From Nitrincola schmidtii (GTDB lineage: Bacteria; Pseudomonadota; Gammaproteobacteria; Pseudomonadales; Balneatricaceae): 64,000 nucleotides of DNA. The stretch lies in assembly GCF_008973715.1 (NCBI RefSeq), contig NZ_WBOL01000001.1, forward strand, positions 62,001 through 126,000, read 5' to 3'. Below the pieces are notes generated by a model, which was given only the letters and a program-made list of their open reading frames with translations, had not been told where the DNA came from and searched no databases. A program made the position numbers and the translations under genes. Shown here piece after piece: positions 46,665 to 55,996 of the stretch (positions within the stretch are counted from its first letter, which is position 1; each line of letters starts with the position of its first letter).

Positions 46665-46741
46665 TGGCGGAATGGACGGGACTCGAACCCGCGACCCCCT
46701 GCGTGACAGGCAGGTATTCTAACCAACTGAACTACCACTCC
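46665..46741 (-). tRNA. tRNA-Asp (GTC), copy 1
   Basis: The cloverleaf is complete, with acceptor GGAGTGG pairing with CCATTCC, anticodon GTC in the CTGTCAC loop, TTCGAGT in the T-arm, and an encoded CCA. It is last in the five-gene array. Confidence 0.97.
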
Positions 46742-46758
46742 GTACTGGTATAACGCTA

Positions 46759-46834
46759 TGGTGGGCGAAGAGGGGTTCGAACCCCCGACCCCCTGCTTGT
46801 AAGGCAGGTGCTCTCCCAACTGAGCTATTCGCCC
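46759..46834 (-). tRNA. tRNA-Val (TAC), copy 1
   Basis: Acceptor GGGCGAA pairs with TTCGCCC, the anticodon is TAC in the CTTACAA loop, the T-loop reads TTCGAAC, and CCA is encoded. Confidence 0.97.
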
Positions 46835-46854
46835 ATAACGTAAATCTGCAAAAA

Positions 46855-46931
46855 TGGCGGAATGGACGGGACTCGAACCCGCGACCCCCTGCGTGACAGG
46901 CAGGTATTCTAACCAACTGAACTACCACTCC
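46855..46931 (-). tRNA. tRNA-Asp (GTC), copy 2
   Basis: This copy is identical in sequence to copy 1 over the tRNA, with anticodon GTC and encoded CCA. The spacer to the next tRNA-Val is only 4 bases. Confidence 0.97.
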
Positions 46932-46935
46932 GTTT

Positions 46936-47011
46936 TGGTGGGCGAAGAGGGGTTCGAACCCCCGACCCCCTGCTTGTAAGGCAGGTGCTCTCCCAACTGA
47001 GCTATTCGCCC
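46936..47011 (-). tRNA. tRNA-Val (TAC), copy 2
   Basis: This copy is identical to the first tRNA-Val, with anticodon TAC and encoded CCA. Confidence 0.97.
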
Positions 47012-47039
47012 AAAACGTTGTCGCTGCTATGATTGTAAG

Positions 47040-47116
47040 TGGCGGAACGGACGGGACTCGAACCCGCGACCCCCTGCGTGACAGGCAGGTATTCTAACCA
47101 ACTGAACTACCGCTCC
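47040..47116 (-). tRNA. tRNA-Asp (GTC), copy 3 (first transcribed)
   Basis: It matches the other tRNA-Asp copies except for a compensatory acceptor-stem change (GGAGCGG with CCGTTCC instead of GGAGTGG with CCATTCC). It is the first tRNA of the array; the promoter should lie within 47117-47280, an AT-rich stretch in which I cannot single out boxes. Confidence 0.97.
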
Positions 47117-47280
47117 ACAAACAATCACTGCTTTTGCAGTCGTTTCGTTTTGCAAAATTGCATCCCGTAACGAGGTGCGAATTCTAATGAATTTCTGGTC
47201 GTTGTCAAACCCTTCCGGCAAATTATTTTAGAATTTTTTATTTTTGTTTGTTTTTTGATCTATTTAGCGATGGTGGTGTC

Positions 47281-47382
47281 GTTGATGTATTAATTGTCAT
47301 GCGACACGCTTTTCGTCGTCCTTGACCGCTCGCTGACGACATCCATGTCGTCAGACGGTCTCATGACAACTAACACACCAAC
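47281..47382 (+). repeat. Structured repeat, copy A1 (inverted-pair family)
   Basis: Outer arms 47281-47305 and 47358-47382 pair over 21 of 25 positions. Inside lie a small hairpin (GTC, loop GTCCTT, GAC) and a perfect hairpin CTGACGAC-ATCCAT-GTCGTCAG. The conserved core starts GACACGCTTTTCGTC and ends CAGACGGTCTCA, shared with copy A2 at 55644-55743. It lies in the 581-base gap (47117-47697) between the tRNA array and syd. No T-tract follows on either strand. Confidence 0.8.
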
Positions 47383-47530
47383 TCATATGAATTCATCACG
47401 TAATTCTTTTCAATTAGCAATCAAGCAAAAAAACTGTTTATCGTGATGGGATTAAATGATGAGATTTTCAGCATGATAAGTAACGATCGATTTGCTTAAA
47501 AATCTATCAGCCAATAGAGTACGTCAAAGA

Positions 47531-47647
47531 GATCGATGAGGTGGTCACTGTCTGACCCTCAGCGCCATGGATGGCGCTGTGGAGCCATCAGGGATGATTT
47601 ACGGCCTGTCAGGAACGGCGAGTCAGACAGTGATTACCTCATTGATC
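47531..47647 (-). repeat. Structured repeat, copy B1 (inverted-pair family)
   Basis: Outer arms 47531-47556 and 47622-47647 pair over 23 of 26 positions. The inner hairpin AGCGCC-ATGGAT-GGCGCT is the reverse complement type of that in copy A1, so B1 is the same family in opposite orientation. A 14-base near-duplication (ACGGC at 47601 and 47615) is unique to this copy. It lies about 150 bases from A1 and 50 bases before syd. Confidence 0.8.
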
Positions 47648-47697
47648 GACAGAGTTAGCAACGTAATCGTTAACAACCCCTGTAAAAGAGTTTAGCA

Positions 47698-48264
47698 ATG
47701 AGCAAAGAGCCATCTGAAGTCCAATTAGCAATTAAGCAATTTATGCAAAAAGTGACAAACATGTGTGAGACACAAGGCTGGCCGCAGCTTCCTTATGACA
47801 AGGAGTGGCCGAGTCAATGTTGGCAGAATGAGGCAGATGAAGGGGTACTGACTTTGTGGAAACCGGTGCTTCAGACCGAATCGATCAATATGTTTGAGCG
47901 CCTAAGTCAGGCTTTAGAAACAGAGATACACCCTGATATCGCCGATTTTTACAGCGTCTATTGGTCAGATCCCCTCCCCGCTAAAGCACCTCAAGGAGAA
48001 CTTTCTTTACTGCAAGTATGGAACCCTGAGGATATCGAACGTCTAAGAGCTAACCTGATTGGGCATGCACTGGAAAAGAAACGACGTAAATTACCCTTAA
48101 CACTCTTCTTTGCAGTCACCTTGCCGGATGGTAATCTTATTATCAGCTTAGATAATGCAGATGGCAGCATTTGGCTTGAATCACCGGGTAAGCCGCCTCA
48201 TCAGCGCTTAGCTAACTCGTTGGCAGAATTTATTCATCAATTAGAACCTATTCCTTTCGAATAA
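47698..48264 (+). CDS. syd: SecY-interacting protein Syd
   Basis: Syd is a cytosolic protein that binds SecY at the inner membrane and is thought to monitor translocon quality. The 188 residues show the family pattern: WPSQCWQNE near 40, WKPVLQT, EIHPDIADFY, SLLQVWNPEDIERLRANLIGH (in parts: LLQVWNPED, then LRANLIGH) and a final LANSLAEFIHQLEP. It starts 50 bases after repeat B1 and is followed by the yajG-like gene after 11 bases, probably as one transcript. Confidence 0.93.
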   Translation: MSKEPSEVQLAIKQFMQKVTNMCETQGWPQLPYDKEWPSQCWQNEADEGVLTLWKPVLQTESINMFERLSQALETEIHPDIADFYSVYWSDPLPAKAPQGELSLLQVWNPEDIERLRANLIGHALEKKRRKLPLTLFFAVTLPDGNLIISLDNADGSIWLESPGKPPHQRLANSLAEFIHQLEPIPFE

Positions 48265-48275
48265 GAGGTGTCACT

Positions 48276-48854
48276 GTGCGTATCATTGGATTGATCACTT
48301 TAGCAATATCCCTGAGTCTTATTGTTGGCTGCTCGGGACCGCTACCACAACGTATCAACCTAGCACCTGAAGTTGTCTCAGCTCCTCGTCTACCGCAATC
48401 CATGCCTGTCAGAGTTGATGTCAACTACCCTAGCCTACAACTTAAAATTGGCACCGTTGCTGATCGCTTAGGAAATGAAGTACCTGTCTGGGTTACCGAT
48501 AATATTCGTAATGAAATTCAACGGGCAGCCACGCAAACTTTAACCCGAATGGGCGTGGCGACCAGTTCTAATGCGAGCGCGCAACTCACCATCAGTATTG
48601 ATCATTTAAGCTACAACCTTCGCAGTGATGGCATACGTCGGGAACTAGTCGGAGATATGCGGATTAGTATGCAGGTCGTTGATGGGAATCGTCGCTATCA
48701 AGGAAAGTTTGAGTCCAATAGACGAGAAGAAATTGTCAGAACGCCTAGCGAAGCTAAGTCCCATGAGTTTATCAACTTACTTGCTAGCGAGGCCTTATTT
48801 CAAGCATTCAACGATCCTGAATTTACACGTTTCTTGATCGCAGGTGCTCGCTAG
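48276..48854 (+). CDS. yajG: YajG-family lipoprotein
   Basis: The 192-residue protein has a lipoprotein signal peptide with lipobox LIVGC (Cys at about 19) and a mature domain of the YajG kind: NLAPEV, then VWVTDNIRNEIQRAATQTL and LTISIDHLSYNL. Ser-Gly after the Cys suggests an outer-membrane destination. The start is a GTG with AAGAGG upstream, 11 bases after syd. Function is unknown. Confidence 0.88.
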   Translation: MRIIGLITLAISLSLIVGCSGPLPQRINLAPEVVSAPRLPQSMPVRVDVNYPSLQLKIGTVADRLGNEVPVWVTDNIRNEIQRAATQTLTRMGVATSSNASAQLTISIDHLSYNLRSDGIRRELVGDMRISMQVVDGNRRYQGKFESNRREEIVRTPSEAKSHEFINLLASEALFQAFNDPEFTRFLIAGAR

Positions 48855-48880
48855 CATTGTTTTGCTTTTAAATGGTAACG

Positions 48881-49291
48881 CTAGGCTTTGTTAAAACTGA
48901 GCGCCACTGAGTTGATGCAATAACGTAACCCAGTGGGCTCAGGACCATCATCAAAAACATGACCTAAATGCGCTTCGCAGCCCGAGCAAGTCACTTCTGT
49001 TCTCAGCATTCCATGTGAACGGTCATCATGGGTATGTATTGCACCCGCTTTTGCCATTTGCCAAAAGCTTGGCCAGCCACATCCTGCATCAAATTTATGC
49101 TCAGAACTGAACAGCAATTGATCACAACAGACACAATGATAGTGCCCAGGTTCGTTAAACTTATCATACTCACCAGTAAAAGGACGTTCCGTACCTTTTT
49201 GTCTGCAAACGTAATATTGATCCGGCGTTAAGGTTTCTTGCCATTGCGCATCCGTTTTTGTGTTCTTAGAAGCCGTTTTATCCACCATCAC
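48881..49291 (-). CDS. msrB: Peptide-methionine (R)-S-oxide reductase
   Basis: MsrB repairs the R form of methionine sulfoxide in proteins with thioredoxin as reductant. The 136 residues carry the zinc ligands in CVCCDQLLF and [21 protein letters not shown] for substrate binding, and the catalytic Cys in [11 protein letters not shown]. It converges with the yajG-like gene; the second Met is an equally possible start. Confidence 0.97.
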
Positions 49292-49437
49292 ACCTACTCC
49301 AGAAAATATCTTTGAGAAACCACGTTAGAACATTGAATTTAGTCGGCTAGCGCGTATCATAAGCGCCTTCGGGCCTGCCGTCCGGCCCTCCTAGTTCATA
49401 CGTCACAGCGCCTCGGATGGAGCGCAGGATTATTATC

Positions 49438-50652
49438 ATGCCCGTTATTCGTAAATCTAACAAACTAATCAACGTCTGCTACGACATTCGTGGCCCAGTT
49501 ATGCAAGAAGCTAAACGACTGGAAGACGAAGGCCATAGAATTCTTAAGCTGAATATCGGCAACCCCGCGCCTTGGGGCTTTAATGCTCCGGAAGAGATAG
49601 TGCAGGATGTAATCCACAATTTACCTGAGTCCCAAGGCTATTGTGATTCTAAGGGTGTGTTCTCTGCTCGCAAAGCAGTGATGCACGAGTGCCAACGCAA
49701 ATCGATCAAGCATGTCACGCTAGAAGATATCTACATTGGCAACGGTGTATCTGAGCTAATCGTCATGGCGATGCAAGGCCTGCTGAATGACAATGATGAG
49801 ATGCTGATTCCATCACCTGATTATCCATTATGGACAGCGGCTGTTAGCTTATCCGGTGGCACACCGGTGCATTACCATTGTGATGAAAGTAACGAATGGT
49901 ATCCAGATATCGACGATATCCGCAGCAAGATTACAGAACACACGCGAGGCATTGTTGTTATCAACCCCAACAATCCAACCGGCGCGCTATATCCAGAGTC
50001 TTTATTGCTACAAATCCTAGAACTAGCGCGTGAACACAGTTTAATCGTGTTTGCTGATGAAATTTACGACAAAATTTTATTTAACGGTGCTGAACACACC
50101 TCTTTAGCTTCGCTAGCAGATGATGTGCTTTGTTTAACCTTCAACGGCTTATCTAAAACCTATCGAGCTGCAGGTTTTCGTTCAGGCTGGATGATTATTA
50201 GCGGCCCTAAGCATCGTGCCAGAGATTACATTGAAGGCTTAGACATGTTGGCCAGCATGCGACTCTGCGCTAATGTTCCAGCGCAGTATGCTATCCAAAC
50301 TGCACTAGGAGGCTATCAAAGCATCAATGAATTGATCGTGCCTGGTGGACGCTTGCATGAGCAAATGGAATTAGCGCACCGTATGTTGAATGAAATACCT
50401 GGCGTCTCTTGCGTCAAACCTAAAGGTGCACTCTATCTGTTTCCTAAACTGGACCCTGCAGTCTATCCTATTCAAAACGACGAGAAATTTGCGCTCGATC
50501 TATTGCAACAACAAAAAGTTCTTGTTGTCCAAGGAACCGGGTTTAATTTAGACGATTCTCAACACTTTAGATTGGTATTTTTACCGACCGTCGATCTACT
50601 GAGCGAAGCTATCGAGAGAATTGCGACCTTTTTAAAAACTTATGAACAGTAA
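49438..50652 (+). CDS. alaA: Glutamate-pyruvate (alanine) aminotransferase AlaA
   Basis: AlaA makes alanine from pyruvate and glutamate. From the ATG at 49438 (MPVIRKSNKL) it has 404 residues, close to E. coli YfbQ; AGGA lies about ten bases upstream, and an earlier in-frame ATG at 49417 adds seven residues. NIGNPAPWGF (about 41), NPNNPTGALYP (about 178), FADEIYDKI and the PLP lysine in GLSKTYRAAGFRSGW (about 240) are all in place. It is monocistronic. Confidence 0.95.
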   Translation: MPVIRKSNKLINVCYDIRGPVMQEAKRLEDEGHRILKLNIGNPAPWGFNAPEEIVQDVIHNLPESQGYCDSKGVFSARKAVMHECQRKSIKHVTLEDIYIGNGVSELIVMAMQGLLNDNDEMLIPSPDYPLWTAAVSLSGGTPVHYHCDESNEWYPDIDDIRSKITEHTRGIVVINPNNPTGALYPESLLLQILELAREHSLIVFADEIYDKILFNGAEHTSLASLADDVLCLTFNGLSKTYRAAGFRSGWMIISGPKHRARDYIEGLDMLASMRLCANVPAQYAIQTALGGYQSINELIVPGGRLHEQMELAHRMLNEIPGVSCVKPKGALYLFPKLDPAVYPIQNDEKFALDLLQQQKVLVVQGTGFNLDDSQHFRLVFLPTVDLLSEAIERIATFLKTYEQ

Positions 50653-50832
50653 TTCATTTGTCGATAAGTCGGTCTATACTCAATGTGATAGAACTGATTA
50701 GCGCAATGATTCCAGCTGCTTAACTCAATCGTTAGAGTGAGCAGTTGGCAACTGGTTTTTTAGTTATGTAATTCAGATAAGCAGTTCAAATTTTCCGCAA
50801 ACTAGCCGTTGATATTAGGAAAGACAGCCAAA

Positions 50833-51201
50833 ATGTTTATTAAAATCAAAAAGAACAGTGGTATTTCCATGCAGCATAACGGTGTCGATAAACGACACAT
50901 TGTGCCGGTCACCTCAAACTTTTTACTCAACCTAAATTTGGTTGCAGAGGCTTCTTTTTATACGCTAAAAGAAACCAAAATCCGTTATGACCTAGAGCAG
51001 CATGCTATTGAATTACCCATGCATACTGCGGTAATTCATTTACACATGAATTACATCTATGCACTCTCTCATGATGCAAAGAGCAAAAATCACAATCAGG
51101 TCGCGGAGCGCCAGTATTACAAGCTATTTTTCCGACCTGAGAATTTAGAGCCATACCTGGAGTTGCGTGCTGCTATTGAAACGCAAGTTGCTAATTTGTA
51201 A
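50833..51201 (+). CDS. Uncharacterised protein
   Basis: I do not recognise this 122-residue soluble protein. It begins MFIKIKKNSG after AGGAAAG at nine bases; an upstream TTG at 50809 is less likely. It is basic at the N-terminus with a hydrophobic patch around VTSNFLLNLNLV, a His-rich middle (HLHMNYIYALSHD) and no signal peptide or membrane segment. A perfect 22-bp stem-loop follows 36 bases after the stop, indicating a separate transcription unit between alaA and htpX. Confidence 0.6.
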   Translation: MFIKIKKNSGISMQHNGVDKRHIVPVTSNFLLNLNLVAEASFYTLKETKIRYDLEQHAIELPMHTAVIHLHMNYIYALSHDAKSKNHNQVAERQYYKLFFRPENLEPYLELRAAIETQVANL

Positions 51202-51237
51202 TCGTCATAGCGATAAAGCTAACGATTAACCTAGATT

Positions 51238-51291
51238 AAAGGCATCAAAGATAGAAGCCCCTAAAACAAGGCTTCTATCTTTGATGCCTTT
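51238..51291 (+). terminator. 22-bp perfect stem-loop after the uncharacterised gene
   Basis: The arms 51238-51259 and 51270-51291 are perfectly complementary around a 10-base loop, and TTTGTTTT begins at the end of the stem. It is probably the terminator of the 122-residue protein gene. Confidence 0.8.
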
Positions 51292-51335
51292 GTTTTACAT
51301 ATCCCCTTATATTGACTATCAAGACTAGTGATTGG

Positions 51336-51363
51336 TTGAAACTTTCCTATAATGCCCCCATCT
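51336..51363 (+). promoter_or_regulatory. Sigma-32-type heat-shock promoter of htpX
   Basis: TTGAAA (51336-51341) and CCCCATCT (51356-51363) are separated by 14 bases, fitting the sigma-32 consensus TTGAAA and CCCCATnT. The predicted leader to the htpX ATG is about 40 bases. A TATAAT also lies within the spacer but without a well-placed -35. Confidence 0.8.
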
Positions 51364-51409
51364 AAATCACAGAATTTTTTAACTTGAAAACCCATGGAAC
51401 CCAACCACT

Positions 51410-52294
51410 ATGAGAATACTACTCTTTCTTGCAACCAACTTAGCCGTGCTGCTTGTCGCAAGCATCACGCTAAACCTTTTGGGTGTAGAACATTACCTAG
51501 AAGGTAGTGGGCTGAACCTCACGTCTTTATTGATTTTCTGTGCTGTATTTGGCTTTGCAGGGTCATTTATCTCTCTGTTTTTGTCAAAATTCATGGCTAA
51601 GAAAGCCACAAAAACTGAAATCATTACTCAACCTCGTAATGAAGATGAGCGCTGGTTATTGGAAACTGTTGCTGAGCTATCTCAAAAAGCTGGCATTAAA
51701 ATGCCCGAGGTGGGAATTTTTCCTGCTCAACAATCCAATGCCTTTGCAACTGGCTGGAATAAAAATGATGCGCTCGTAGCCGTCAGTACCGGTCTATTGC
51801 AGCGTTTTCGTCGTGAAGAAGTTCGTGCGGTCATGGCACATGAAATTGGTCACGTCGCTAATGGTGATATGGTGACTCTGGCCTTGATCCAAGGCGTCGT
51901 GAATACCTTCGTCATGTTCTTCGCACGCATTGCCGCCCATATCGTCAACAACTTTGTCAATCGCGGACAAGGTGGTGAACGCGGTATCGGCTACTTTATT
52001 ACGGTTATCGTGTTCGATATCATTTTCGGGATTTTGGCATCAGTGATTGTTGCGTGGTTCTCGCGTAAGCGTGAATTCAGAGCAGATGAAGCGGGTGCAT
52101 CTCTTGCGAGTCCTGCAGCGATGATCAGTGCTTTACAAAGACTCAAAGCTGAACAAGGCATTCCTGATCAAATGCCAGATCAGATGATGGCATTTGGGAT
52201 TAACAGTCACTTGAAAGATGGCTTTATGAAGTTACTTTCGACTCACCCTCCGCTGGATGATCGCATCGCTGTGCTGATGCAGCGTGGAAGATAA
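51410..52294 (+). CDS. htpX: Membrane metalloprotease HtpX
   Basis: HtpX is an inner-membrane zinc protease that helps FtsH remove misfolded membrane proteins. The 294 residues have N-terminal membrane segments (about 4-25 and 33-55), the HExxH site in [13 protein letters not shown] (about 140), two further membrane segments (about 155-180 and 195-220), and the third zinc ligand Glu in [10 protein letters not shown]. Length is normal. It has its own heat-shock promoter and a strong terminator. Confidence 0.97.
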
Positions 52295-52301
52295 AAACAA
52301 C

Positions 52302-52328
52302 GAAGGGCGCACTCAGCGCCCTTCTTTT
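52302..52328 (+). terminator. Intrinsic terminator of htpX
   Basis: GAAGGGCGC (52302-52310) pairs with GCGCCCTTC (52316-52324) around ACTCA, followed by five T, eight bases after the htpX stop. Confidence 0.92.
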
Positions 52329-52350
52329 TAGATTACTCTTTACGCCGAGA

Positions 52351-53175
52351 TTATACCGCAATCGGTAAAGGTGGTTCGGGCCTATCAGGATCGATAGGAT
52401 CGTCGTCCTTCTCTGCTTGGCTTTGTAAATACTCTAATATCGCATCTGCCACACGCGCATGCAGATCTGGCAAGCCAGTATTGCCAAACAAACGGTTAAA
52501 CTCCAATAGATAGGGGTGATCACCCACCATGGCTATATCAAACCCCGCATGATCTAGATCGAGTTTTTCTGCTAACTCTAGCGCCAGCGAAACCGCAGCA
52601 GGATGTAATGGGCTGACATCAACCTGTCCACCTCTGGAGACATTATTGTGAAAACCATCCTGTCCTTGCAGTCGCCAATACCCTGCCACTAATTTTTTTC
52701 CAACCAGAACAATACGCATATCACGATCGATTGGCAGATACTCTTGCACATAAAGCACATCGGTTTTAGCCAGGTACGCATTCCAGTCAGCTTTATTTTC
52801 GATCAGGAACACCCCTTCTCCCATACTGCTTTTTGGAATTTTAGCAACAAAAGGCAAATCCATTTTATCCCATAACATTTCTGCTCTGGAGGGTGTATTG
52901 GGTTCTATCTCTGTCCAAGGCGTATTTAGAGGAACAAGCATCTTGAATGCACGAGTCATTTCAATCTTATTATGTCCCAACAAATAAGAGGCATGGCTTG
53001 GAAAAATCTTCTTTTTAAGCCCGAAAACAATGGCGTTTACCTGCCAATACTCAGGAAACAGCACCCAGTCCGCCGTCAGAATTTCTTCTTTTTGACGAAA
53101 CATATGCTCAGGTTTAAAAACAGTCACGTCAGGAAGACGTAGGGTTCGGAACGCATCAAAGGATACGAGTTTCAT
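52351..53175 (-). CDS. ATP-grasp domain protein (RimK-like)
   Basis: The 274-residue protein has an ATP-grasp fold: LPFVAKIPKSSMGEGVFLIEN is the ATP lysine and glycine loop (about 126-146), VLYVQEYLPIDRDMRIVLVG the adenine-binding and central strand (about 160), and HPYLLEFNRLFGNTGL the metal-binding Glu-x-Asn motif (about 220). The RimK-type glutamate ligases and related peptide ligases are the nearest group; the substrate is unknown. An acidic/Pro tail (DDDPIDPDRPEPP) is unusual. It stands alone, convergent with htpX and divergent from the decarboxylase gene. Confidence 0.82.
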   Translation of the reverse strand: MKLVSFDAFRTLRLPDVTVFKPEHMFRQKEEILTADWVLFPEYWQVNAIVFGLKKKIFPSHASYLLGHNKIEMTRAFKMLVPLNTPWTEIEPNTPSRAEMLWDKMDLPFVAKIPKSSMGEGVFLIENKADWNAYLAKTDVLYVQEYLPIDRDMRIVLVGKKLVAGYWRLQGQDGFHNNVSRGGQVDVSPLHPAAVSLALELAEKLDLDHAGFDIAMVGDHPYLLEFNRLFGNTGLPDLHARVADAILEYLQSQAEKDDDPIDPDRPEPPLPIAV

Positions 53176-53376
53176 TTAGGATGATTCGAAAGTTGAATTA
53201 AGGCGAATTTTAATCTGAGATTTGTATAGAGTCGATCATTTTTTACACTGGATAGCTGCGTCTCTATTACATACAATAGGCACCGCAGGAACCAGCCGGC
53301 CAAGCGCCTCCCGCAATAGTATTGTCATATGAATAAGTGACAATCTTCACTCACTTTGAACCACAGGCTGCCATTC

Positions 53377-55629
53377 ATGAAGTTTCGTTTTCCCGTCATC
53401 ATCATCGATGAAGATTTCCGTTCAGAAAATATATCTGGGTCAGGTATTCGCGACCTTGCTCAAGCGATCAGTAACGAAGGCATGGAGGTCGTTGGCTTTA
53501 CCAGCTATGGCGATTTAACCTCCTTTGCACAGCAGGCAAGTCGCGCCTCCTGCTTTATTTTATCGATTGATGATGAGGATTTTGCCGACGCGGGTGAAGA
53601 TCCATCACGCTGTGCCTTGAACGCTGTGCGTGATTTTATTATCGAAGTACGTAAGCGTAACGCCGATATACCGGTGTTCTTGTATGGTGAAACGCGTACT
53701 TCAAGGCATATTCCAAACGATATCCTGCGAGAACTTCATGGCTTCATTCATATGTTTGAAGATACCCCAGAGTTTGTTGCTCGCCACATTATTCGTGAAG
53801 CACGAAAATATCTTGAAAACTTAGCGCCACCTTTTTTCCAAGCGTTGATGGAATATGCCAGTGACAGCTCTTACTCTTGGCACTGCCCTGGGCACTCGGG
53901 AGGCGTTGCTTTCCTAAAAAGCCCTGTTGGACAGATGTTTCACCAGTTCTTTGGAGAGAATTTATTAAGAGCCGATGTTTGTAATGCGGTTGAAGAGTTA
54001 GGCCAACTGCTTGACCATACCGGCCCTGTGTCTGCCAGTGAGTCCAATGCGGCACGTATTTTTAATGCCGACCATCTATTTTTTGTTACCAATGGTACTT
54101 CTACCTCTAATAAGGTCGTGTGGCACTCTACCGTGGCGCCAGGTGATATCGTGGTTGTGGATCGTAACTGTCACAAATCGATTCTTCATTCGATCATTAT
54201 GACGGGCGCTATTCCGGTATTTTTGATGCCAACCCGAAACCACTACGGCATCATTGGTCCTATTCCTAAGTCCGAATTTGATCCTGAAACGATTCAGCGC
54301 AAAATTGAACAAAATCCATTTGCGCGTGAAGCGCTGAACAAAAAACCACGCATTCTGACTATCACGCAAAGTACCTATGATGGTGTGCTTTACAACGTCG
54401 AAACCATCAAATCGATGCTCGGTGACACCATCGATACGCTGCATTTCGATGAAGCTTGGTTACCTCACGCCTCTTTCCATGAGTTTTACAAAGACATGCA
54501 TGCGATCGGCAGTGATCGCCCACGTTCAGAAAATGCGCTGGTATTTGCCACTCAATCAACGCACAAACTCTTGGCTGGCTTATCTCAAGCGTCTCAAATT
54601 CTGGTTCAGGATGCCTCTTCACGTAAGCTGGATACGCATCGTTTTAATGAATCTTATTTGATGCACTCATCTACCAGCCCTCAATACGCCATTATCGCAT
54701 CCTGTGATGTTGCGGCTGCCATGATGGAGCCACCGGGTGGCCACTCATTGGTTGAAGAATCTATTCTAGAAGCTTTAGATTTCCGTCGCGCAATGCGCAA
54801 GGTGGATGAAGAGTTTGGCAGTGATTGGTGGTTTAAAGTCTGGGGCCCTGATTATTTGGCTGACGAAGGTATCGGTGATCGCGATGATTGGGTCATCCAT
54901 GCCGGTGACACCTGGCATGGTTTTGGTGAAATAGAATCAGGCTTTAACATGCTAGACCCGATCAAAGCCACCATCATCACACCGGGACTTAATCTTGCGG
55001 GTGAGTTTGACGAACAGGGTATTCCGGCTGCTATTGTCAGTCGCTACTTAGCCGAGCACGGTATTATCATTGAGAAAACTGGCCTTTATTCCTTCTTTAT
55101 CATGTTTACCATCGGCATCACTAAAGGCCGTTGGAACTCTATGGTCACGGAATTACAGCAGTTTAAAGATGACTATGACCGCAATCGCCCGTTATGGCGC
55201 GTCATGCCAGAGTTTGCTAAAAAATTCCCTGCGTATGAGCGTATCGGCCTGCGTGATCTGTGTAACCAAATTCACTCGGTATACAAAGAGTATGATGTCG
55301 CACGCATCACCACTGAAATGTATCTGTCTGAAATCGAACCTGCGATGACGCCTGCGGATGCATGGGCACGCATGGCACATCGTGATGTTGAGCGCGTATC
55401 GATTGATGAGCTAGAAGGTCGTGTGACCGCGATGCTGGTAACGCCTTATCCTCCGGGTATTCCATTGCTGGTGCCAGGCGAGCGCTTTAACCGCACTATT
55501 GTTCGTTACTTGCAGTTTGCGCGTGATTTTAATGCGTTATTCCCAGGTTTTGAGACGGATGTTCATGGATTGGTGCGTGAAAAGACGCCACATGGGGATG
55601 CTTATTTTATTGATGTGGTGAAGGGGTAA
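53377..55629 (+). CDS. Orn/Lys/Arg decarboxylase (inducible type, LdcA/AdiA-like)
   Basis: This fold-type I PLP decarboxylase converts a basic amino acid to cadaverine, putrescine or agmatine. From the ATG at 53377 (MKFRFPVIII) it has 750 residues: an N-terminal response-regulator-like wing domain (about 1-130), the PLP core with SWHCPGHSGGVAF (about 170), VTNGTSTSNKVV, HFDEAWLPHA and the PLP lysine in ATQSTHKLLAGL (about 395), and a C-terminal domain. Length and motifs fit LdcA/AdiA; arginine versus lysine specificity is not readable. An in-frame TTG at 53356 is less likely. Structured repeat A2 begins 15 bases after its stop. Confidence 0.93.
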   Translation: MKFRFPVIIIDEDFRSENISGSGIRDLAQAISNEGMEVVGFTSYGDLTSFAQQASRASCFILSIDDEDFADAGEDPSRCALNAVRDFIIEVRKRNADIPVFLYGETRTSRHIPNDILRELHGFIHMFEDTPEFVARHIIREARKYLENLAPPFFQALMEYASDSSYSWHCPGHSGGVAFLKSPVGQMFHQFFGENLLRADVCNAVEELGQLLDHTGPVSASESNAARIFNADHLFFVTNGTSTSNKVVWHSTVAPGDIVVVDRNCHKSILHSIIMTGAIPVFLMPTRNHYGIIGPIPKSEFDPETIQRKIEQNPFAREALNKKPRILTITQSTYDGVLYNVETIKSMLGDTIDTLHFDEAWLPHASFHEFYKDMHAIGSDRPRSENALVFATQSTHKLLAGLSQASQILVQDASSRKLDTHRFNESYLMHSSTSPQYAIIASCDVAAAMMEPPGGHSLVEESILEALDFRRAMRKVDEEFGSDWWFKVWGPDYLADEGIGDRDDWVIHAGDTWHGFGEIESGFNMLDPIKATIITPGLNLAGEFDEQGIPAAIVSRYLAEHGIIIEKTGLYSFFIMFTIGITKGRWNSMVTELQQFKDDYDRNRPLWRVMPEFAKKFPAYERIGLRDLCNQIHSVYKEYDVARITTEMYLSEIEPAMTPADAWARMAHRDVERVSIDELEGRVTAMLVTPYPPGIPLLVPGERFNRTIVRYLQFARDFNALFPGFETDVHGLVREKTPHGDAYFIDVVKG

Positions 55630-55643
55630 TTCGTTTGGTGTGC

Positions 55644-55743
55644 GAGCAGGTAGCACTGCTTTGAGACACGCTTTTCGTCATCCATGACCGCTCCCTGTCG
55701 CCATCCATGGCGACAGACGGTCTCAAATCAGCACTACCTGCTC
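55644..55743 (+). repeat. Structured repeat, copy A2 (inverted-pair family)
   Basis: Outer arms 55644-55667 and 55720-55743 pair over 21 of 24 positions. Inside are GTC-ATCCAT-GAC and CTGTCGCC-ATCCAT-GGCGACAG. The core matches copy A1 over about 60 bases, with paired changes in the second hairpin, while the outer arms are unrelated to those of A1. It begins 15 bases after the decarboxylase stop. Confidence 0.82.
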
Positions 55744-55874
55744 TCCCTTGGAGATCGGTGGTTGTCATTCAATAAAATTAACAGCAAATACTGATAGAAA
55801 CCCATACACACTCCAATCCCTACAAGGATGATTGAAGTGCTTTTAAATCCCCACTGAACTATGGATGGGATGAT

Positions 55875-55964
55875 GGGTTGGGGATTGCATGACCCTCTGC
55901 GCCATGGATGGCGCAGTGGAGCCATCAGGGATAATTTCACGGCGTGTCATGCAATTCCAAACTC
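55875..55964 (-). repeat. Structured repeat, copy B2 (inverted-pair family)
   Basis: Outer arms 55875-55893 and 55946-55964 pair over 16 of 19 positions. The inner hairpin is TGCGCC-ATGGAT-GGCGCA. Core blocks TGGAGCCATCAGGGAT and ACGGC are shared with copy B1. It faces A2 in the 367-base gap (55630-55996) between the decarboxylase and the convergent DUF5610 gene; the 131 bases between A2 and B2 show no other feature. Confidence 0.8.
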
Positions 55965-55996
55965 AGCATACCAAACCACGCCGTCACAGCAGATTT

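Follow-up and report, generated by a model that had tools for sequence, protein, structure and literature searches.

A widespread family of inward-paired, folded repeats in Gammaproteobacteria in which the folding of one strand is retained

The window analyzed here, a stretch of 64,000 nucleotides (nt) from a contig of Nitrincola schmidtii, carries four copies of a repeat of ~104 nt, arranged as two pairs (47280-47633 and 55642-55971) in each of which a copy A on the plus strand is followed by a copy B on the minus strand. Pair 1 lies between a minus-strand tRNA cluster and the plus-strand syd gene, while pair 2 lies between the convergent genes for an Orn/Lys/Arg decarboxylase and a DUF5610 protein; A2 starts 13 nt past the end of the decarboxylase gene and B2 adjoins the 3' end of the DUF5610 gene (gene end 55997). 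An original prediction, made from the letters of the window, had pointed out the four copies and stated that no gene lies behind them, which is what we found. In every copy one strand has GGA in its hairpin loops and the other has TCC, and we refer to them as the GGA strand and the TCC strand (Table 1).

Table 1. Position, orientation, model score and hairpin loops of the repeat copies and of the spacers within each pair.
Feature	Coordinates	GGA strand (constrained folding)	Strand of core	R1 score (bits)	Hairpin loops	Remark
Copy A1	47280..47383	-	+	97.2	GTCCTT 47318-47323; ATCCAT 47341-47346 (+ letters)	
Pair 1 spacer	47384..47530					unrelated to pair 2 spacer (best blastn E 0.29)
Copy B1	47531..47633	+	-	56.0	ATGGAT 47567-47572; AGGGAT 47590-47595	outer stem to about 47647
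Copy A2	55642..55745	-		99.7	ATCCAT 55680-55685 and 55703-55708 (+ letters)	
Pair 2 spacer	55746..55867					
Copy B2	55868..55971	+		82.2	ATGGAT 55904-55909; AGGGAT 55927-55932	

A covariance model, termed R1, was built from 34 copies with the window's four in the training set, and its search of the window at E 1 returned exactly these four (E 9e-22 to 3.4e-11). As a check free of that training, blastn with A2 alone recovered A2, A1 (E 1.7e-16), B2 (9.3e-4) and three other sites of the genome; B1 was missed. All four copies fold far beyond their shuffled versions (z from -4.3 to -7.1; 0/200 shuffles equally good). A1 and A2 are 87.5% identical across a 64-nt core and B1 and B2 84.6% identical across 78 nt, the likeness between A and B being weaker (E 0.049 to 5e-8). 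The inverted arrangement described originally stands, although the distances given for it (131-148 bases) do not, as the spacers measure 147 and 122 bp by the model; likewise GACACGC or ACACGC, said to be present in all copies, is replaced by GACAGGC in B1, and the loops are of the ATCCAT type as claimed but vary, reading GTCCTT in A1 and ATCCCT in both B copies. The two pairs are not a duplicated segment, since both the spacers, which had rightly been called unrelated, and the surrounding DNA differ: the flanks gave no mutual match at E 0.1 and the spacers none better than the value in Table 1. A recent segmental duplication, one of the two findings that the original prediction had named as fatal to it, was thus rejected.

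The family extends well beyond the window. R1 gave 181 matches in the genus, where 11/11 genomes had some and the genome of the window had 14, and 150 of the 181 were listed and underlie the analyses of the genus below. A DNA pattern for the B-type core found at least 120 stretches in public genomes, 80 of 120 being used, from Xanthomonas, Stenotrophomonas, Shewanella, Oceanisphaera, Microbulbifer, Marinobacter, Halopseudomonas, Rheinheimera and others; in 20 genomes outside the genus, selected because the pattern is present and with up to 150 candidates scored in each, R1 gave 1332 matches in 20/20 (11-150 per genome). These are numbers of matches; in one set of 142, five fell on the other strand of a copy that had been counted, and true copy numbers may lie a few per cent below them, although the limits on candidates scored per genome act in the opposite direction. 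In an even sample of the class 40/229 genomes, our own included, had a match at E 1e-6 with 17 candidates scored per genome; in a sample of the whole phylum 8/120 did, again including our own, and all 8 belong to the same class. The family is large, and its folded repeats are dispersed between the genes of many Gammaproteobacteria. No match was found in phage records with A2 as query, and plasmid records searched with two queries gave 2 and 17 matched records, the 2 within the 17, two of the 17 coming from Alphaproteobacteria. On one of these plasmids, pDCA (L248:2501-2618), the copy is flanked by a gene for a haloalkane dehalogenase and by one annotated as an ISAs1-family transposase, the latter starting 36 bp after the match. 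We found no description of the repeat family in the literature searched, which left out most subscription papers and all supplements and figures.

Each copy forms a three-way junction, with two small hairpins within an outer stem of about 23 pairs, and in each of the four window copies the ANGGA hairpins are 23 nt apart. The sequence of the outer stem varies freely while its pairing is kept: among 125 distinct rows of the genus alignment 90.6% of the cells are paired as compared with 65.6% in shuffles, double changes occur at 23/23 outer-stem pairs and the covariation score is 0.552 (0.149 in shuffles and at most 0.076 when slid), figures that an alignment fitted to the structure favors. The loops are conserved. 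GGA is present in the hairpin-1 loop of 130/130 distinct copies outside the genus and 119/125 within it, and in the hairpin-2 loop of 124/130 and 111/125, respectively; outside the genus hairpin 1 is fixed by the search pattern and hairpin 2 is free of it, and all copies were found by a model that includes the loops. Hairpin-2 hexaloops read ANGGAN, with N variable, in 94/97 and 84/87 cases; loops of another length, often AGGAC, occur in 33/130 copies outside the genus and 38/125 in it. Several copies of the genus (at L043, L045, L051, L052 and L055) hold a second hairpin element, GCCGAAAATGCAGGAGCATTTTTCGGC or near it, within the hairpin-2 loop, where it follows a GCCATGGACGGC-type hairpin, and a similar insert is present in one copy outside the genus.

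The two strands of the outer stem are not equivalent. On the modelled TCC strand, mismatches of the A·C kind exceed those of the G·T kind by 158:26 and 147:41 in our two sets of copies, and C·T exceed G·A by 101:16 and 93:8; removal of the five second-strand matches from the genus set leaves 156:22 and 100:12. Such A·C and C·T mismatches correspond to G·U and G·A on the GGA strand. A bias from fitting the alignment is not the source of the A·C excess, because it would raise G·U on the modelled strand. As RNA, the GGA strand is the more stable one in 96/109 and 97/113 copies, and as DNA in 96/109 and 91/111; with the arms alone joined by a symmetric cap and folded as RNA it is the more stable in 93/104 and 91/99 of the copies that differ. 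Related copies are not independent, so that p values of a sign test on these counts overstate certainty; the two sets come from different genera. In the window, the predicted energies for the GGA and the TCC strand are -55.7 and -38.8 kcal/mol for A1, -59.9 and -52.1 for A2, and -49.5 and -42.9 for B2. Moreover, the asymmetry of mismatches has the same sign for every direction of the neighboring genes, being 35:8 and 21:3 where TCC is the sense strand and 21:5 and 16:1 where GGA is; this independence of gene direction points to a property of the element itself. The folding of the GGA strand is what is kept, while the sequence keeps changing, and the TCC loops by which the repeats had been described belong to the less informative strand.

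Read on the strand opposite to the R1 core, the repeats also find a named relative where the original prediction had none to offer: the Rfam family TwoAYGGAY (RF01731), reportedly due to Weinberg in 2010. RF01731 aligned over its full length to A1 (26.3 bits, minus strand), B2 (23.9, plus strand) and B1 (21.4, plus strand); no match to A2 was listed at E 5. Across 14 genomes it gave a match at E 1 in 12/14 and passed its curated cut-off in 2/14, namely in G033 (Halopseudomonas, 46.4 bits) and G039 (Microbulbifer, 44.0 bits), both times at an R1 copy on the opposite strand. In G000 (the genome of the window), G001, G002 and G010, 16/16 RF01731 matches fall on the opposite strand of R1 copies, and the same holds for the five checked in G033, G035, G036 and G039; 14 control genomes gave 0 matches, and 15 other loci none at the cut-off. 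By these model matches the repeat family is related, if distantly, to TwoAYGGAY. Both have two hairpins with AYGGAY-like loops, the outer stem of RF01731 is described as poorly conserved, and two hairpins with ANGGAN-type loops in one outer stem are found in the family, the window copies included. The differences are that the window copies score below the RF01731 cut-off and that the repeat is high-copy, interspersed and paired inward, whereas TwoAYGGAY is not described as a repeat in the available portions of its literature. Its discoverers, in the accessible text of PMC2864571, class it with the probable RNAs that have no cis-regulatory role and give gut, gammaproteobacterial and clostridial DNA as its sources; its function is given as unknown, with CsrA binding proposed, in the part of PMC4333381 that could be consulted. 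Another Rfam entry, the Yersinia small RNA (sRNA) Ysr224 (RF02770), matches B1 with 28.4 bits through a GCGCCATCC-TGGCGC hairpin, but the score is far under the 70 bits required for that entry, and it is the TCC strand that matches.

The inverted pairing of the window recurs. Within the genus, 31/31 neighbors less than 300 bp apart among the matches listed point inward, many of them orthologs or repeats of a single unit and so not independent events; 19 pairs from G010 and G002 mostly align as one ~350-bp unit, spacer included. More widely spaced neighbors (785-1408 bp) were one inward and three same-direction pairs. At 80 loci outside the genus there are 38 adjacent neighbors less than 500 bp apart, of which 26 are inward, 6 outward, and 5 and 1 in the two same-direction arrangements; four of the six outward ones are junctions within longer arrays, and +-+- arrays are present at L076 and L136. 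A different arrangement was seen in a metagenome-assembled genome labelled Saccharophagus (L068:3108-3749), with four copies in the same orientation at a spacing of ~180 bp, unlike the usual inward pairs. We also considered that an inward pair may enclose an autonomous element and rejected it: L089 and L122 enclose apparently ordinary genes (by eye), L220 encloses a ParD/ParE-like pair, and the open reading frames (ORFs) at L313-L317 include no recognised transposase, as judged by eye with no family search run. The ParD/ParE-like toxin-antitoxin pair is in G010 (L220:661-1198), between inward copies 785 bp apart.

In its distribution, the family agrees with the original comparison to repetitive extragenic palindromic (REP) sequences and bacterial interspersed mosaic elements (BIMEs). 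Like these and like REPINs, it is extragenic, palindromic and multi-copy, is often arranged as inverted pairs or alternating arrays and often lies near gene 3' ends. Unlike REP and BIME sequences, the repeat is ~100 nt long and forms a three-way junction with both loops on one strand. No conserved GTAG was noticed by eye in the alignment, a GTAG/CGTC tag not having been searched for systematically.

Comparison of orthologous sites gives a view of how the copies change. The syd-side site has an R1 match in G000, G006, G008 and G009 and none in the seven other genomes of the genus, and the gap between the decarboxylase and DUF5610 genes has one in the same four genomes; a pair of G010 flanks the gene at this gap on its opposite side, and G002 gave no DUF5610 match. 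Both window pairs are thus common only to the closest genomes. B1 is present in G008 and G009 and absent in G006, which keeps A1, and the B1 of G000 has a 13-nt insertion absent from its G009 ortholog. The site without B1 in G006 suggested that the outer stem could derive from an inverted target duplication, an idea rejected as the letters retained there resemble the element's own arm. Alignment of five orthologous loci from the four close genomes showed the core to be inverted, with its flanks collinear, at 2/5: in G000 relative to G006 and G008 at the first locus and in G000 and G009 relative to G006 at the second. The arms are unrelated in sequence at the first locus, where separate insertions may have occurred; at a third orthologous locus the arms have changed together. 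Of the 20 copies of Luteimonas G044 that score best, 12 have one and the same sequence across 104 nt, whereas their homologous flanks have diverged; the choice of best-scoring copies favors the identity but not the contrast with the flanks. In many Luteimonas copies (L279-L298) and several of G010 (L008, L034, L035) a decayed left half of A is present a few tens of bases upstream of an intact A, as if new copies replaced or abutted old ones.

With roughly even odds (about 0.5), we read the repeat as a REP/BIME-like, non-autonomous palindrome related to TwoAYGGAY, in which the folding of the GGA strand is constrained and the arms are renewed by template switching. The GGA strand folds into a long outer stem opening into two hairpins with mostly ANGGAN loops, its arms drifting fast and yet remaining complementary; template switching between the arms during replication would copy changes across and occasionally flip the core in place. 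Inverted spacers and homogenised arms are reported outcomes of this process (PMC8604942), as is the maintenance of hairpins (PMC8794818). On the GGA strand, selection or the process of propagation would tolerate G·U and G·A, and less often the A·C and C·T kinds. The element would spread, probably as a folded single strand and often as inward pairs, by an enzyme or a recombination route acting in trans, and may have some effect on neighboring transcripts.

Several results weigh against this reading. Template switching alone predicts no strand asymmetry, and the asymmetry is least marked in the convergent gaps of genomes outside the genus (A·C versus G·T 20:12) and is not uniform in the small hairpins: without the loop-closing pairs, A·C versus G·T is 18:7 in the genus and 9:15 outside it, where C·T versus G·A is 44:2. 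B1 folds equally well on both strands (-44.5 and -44.6 kcal/mol). The 21.4-26.3 bits of the window copies miss the RF01731 cut-off of 43, and the copy-rich G030 and G037 have no RF01731 match at E 1. Orientation at the window sites is constant in the relatives that have a copy. The absence of B1 in G006, which keeps letters like the right arm, may be a deletion rather than a clean empty site, and in the seven genomes with no copy beside syd the gap does not align, so no clean empty site is offered there either. Position relative to genes is only modestly off background, no mobilising enzyme was found and no target duplication was defined.

CsrA binding is the main rival to a constraint intrinsic to the element and a possible though less probable explanation. 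Transcripts of the GGA strand, with two ANGGA hairpins each, would titrate CsrA/RsmA, the copies acting as a putative distributed decoy. ANGGA is the CsrA motif in what could be consulted of PMC9788540, GGA stands in the loop of most copies of both hairpins with hexaloops that are mostly ANGGAN, and the same idea has been published for TwoAYGGAY (PMC4333381, accessible portion). Against it, only 16/35 single copies in tandem context have GGA as the sense strand of the upstream gene, the asymmetry is equally strong where TCC is sense, and the GGA side shows no excess of promoters (p 0.98, 0.86). csrA was matched in 35/39 genomes with copies and 18/20 without them, which makes its presence uninformative as a marker; G244, a 98%-complete genome, has 7 R1 matches and no csrA match. 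Decoys of the CsrB/RsmZ type, which are encoded by one or a few sRNA genes, also have ANGGA in hairpin loops. The repeat differs from them in being scattered, with copies in the tens to hundreds, and in having no signature of a promoter.

A broader proposal, which we regard as rather unlikely, joins both lines: TwoAYGGAY would be the folded strand of a widespread mobile palindrome, with no known transposase, that provides gammaproteobacterial genomes with paired CsrA-type sites in numbers of tens to hundreds. If this were true, genomes would gain a tunable CsrA/RsmA sponge through repeat expansion; binding of CsrA to the loops would mean that repeats buffer a global regulator. The relation to RF01731 ties an Rfam motif that lacked an explanation to a repeat family of high abundance, the mismatches provide a strand-resolved signature of which strand of a palindromic repeat folds, and the orthologous sites with core inversion and arm co-evolution are natural cases in which template switching can be weighed against selection.

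It is unlikely that the repeat is an element of mRNA 3' ends, whose long hairpin would protect or end transcripts in either orientation. Gene context was assigned with a simple ORF caller, which placed 62/93 clusters outside the genus and 47/88 within it, the remaining 31/93 and 41/88 being inside a called ORF or at an edge. Copies in tandem gaps favor the side of the upstream stop codon, to which they are closer in 24/35 and 17/22 instances (medians of 44 and 41 nt); a gene also ends ~110 nt before each of the two plasmid copies that were examined, and REPs are placed similarly (PMC3733652, in its available text). Divergent gaps hold 10/62 and 9/47 clusters as compared with 41/157 and 7/63 background gaps; these counts show no consistent avoidance. 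The 12 nt after the hairpin contain a mean of 2.0 T on the GGA strand and 3.0-3.3 on the TCC strand, with at least 7 T in at most 1/119 and 1/121 cases, so neither strand has the U-run of an intrinsic terminator; with no signal for either, a promoter or a terminator within the repeat was rejected. A1 and B1, moreover, lie between the divergent tRNA genes and syd, and a 3'-end role leaves the conserved loops and the inward pairing unexplained. A single-strand constraint intrinsic to the element is favored over a cis-acting role in mRNA because the asymmetry holds for any gene direction, the GGA strand is not preferentially sense, and promoter and terminator signals are absent.

Movement by a RAYT (Y1) transposase, as a classical REP or as an element with long terminal inverted repeats (TIRs), is disfavored and quite improbable. 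The inward pairs and +-+- arrays are as in BIMEs, and for one RAYT of S. maltophilia, TIR repeats that are self-complementary were described by Di Nocera 2013 (PMC3733652, portion seen); in the genome of the window a single side of one Y1 match has a copy (G000:C7:82037-82141), at a distance of 2.2 kb. Unlike RAYT-associated REPs, the repeat has no attached RAYT in the regions examined: 0 of 20 regions, reaching ~2 kb to either side and covering 22 of 35 Y1 matches, hold a copy at E 0.1, and another 6 Y1 loci, taken from the genus and its relatives, likewise hold none, on which grounds the RAYT/TIR association was rejected. No Y1 match was found in 4/20 genomes with copies, among them G044 with its 75 R1 matches, nor in G001, G005 and G009 of the genus, which also have copies. 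That these are selfish or neutral palindromes with no function, palindromic solely through template switching in replication, is very improbable. In-place inversion, fast turnover of the arms, the lack of a phage-record match with A2 and a total of 17 plasmid records agree with it, but template switching by itself would not lead one to expect the strand asymmetry or the conservation of loops and junction.

Taken as a whole, the original interpretation is partly supported. Beside pair 1, the region 46668-47116 of the window is a tandem cluster of five alternating tRNA-Asp and tRNA-Val genes, and five tRNA genes are present at 7/11 orthologous loci scanned, the window's own counted.

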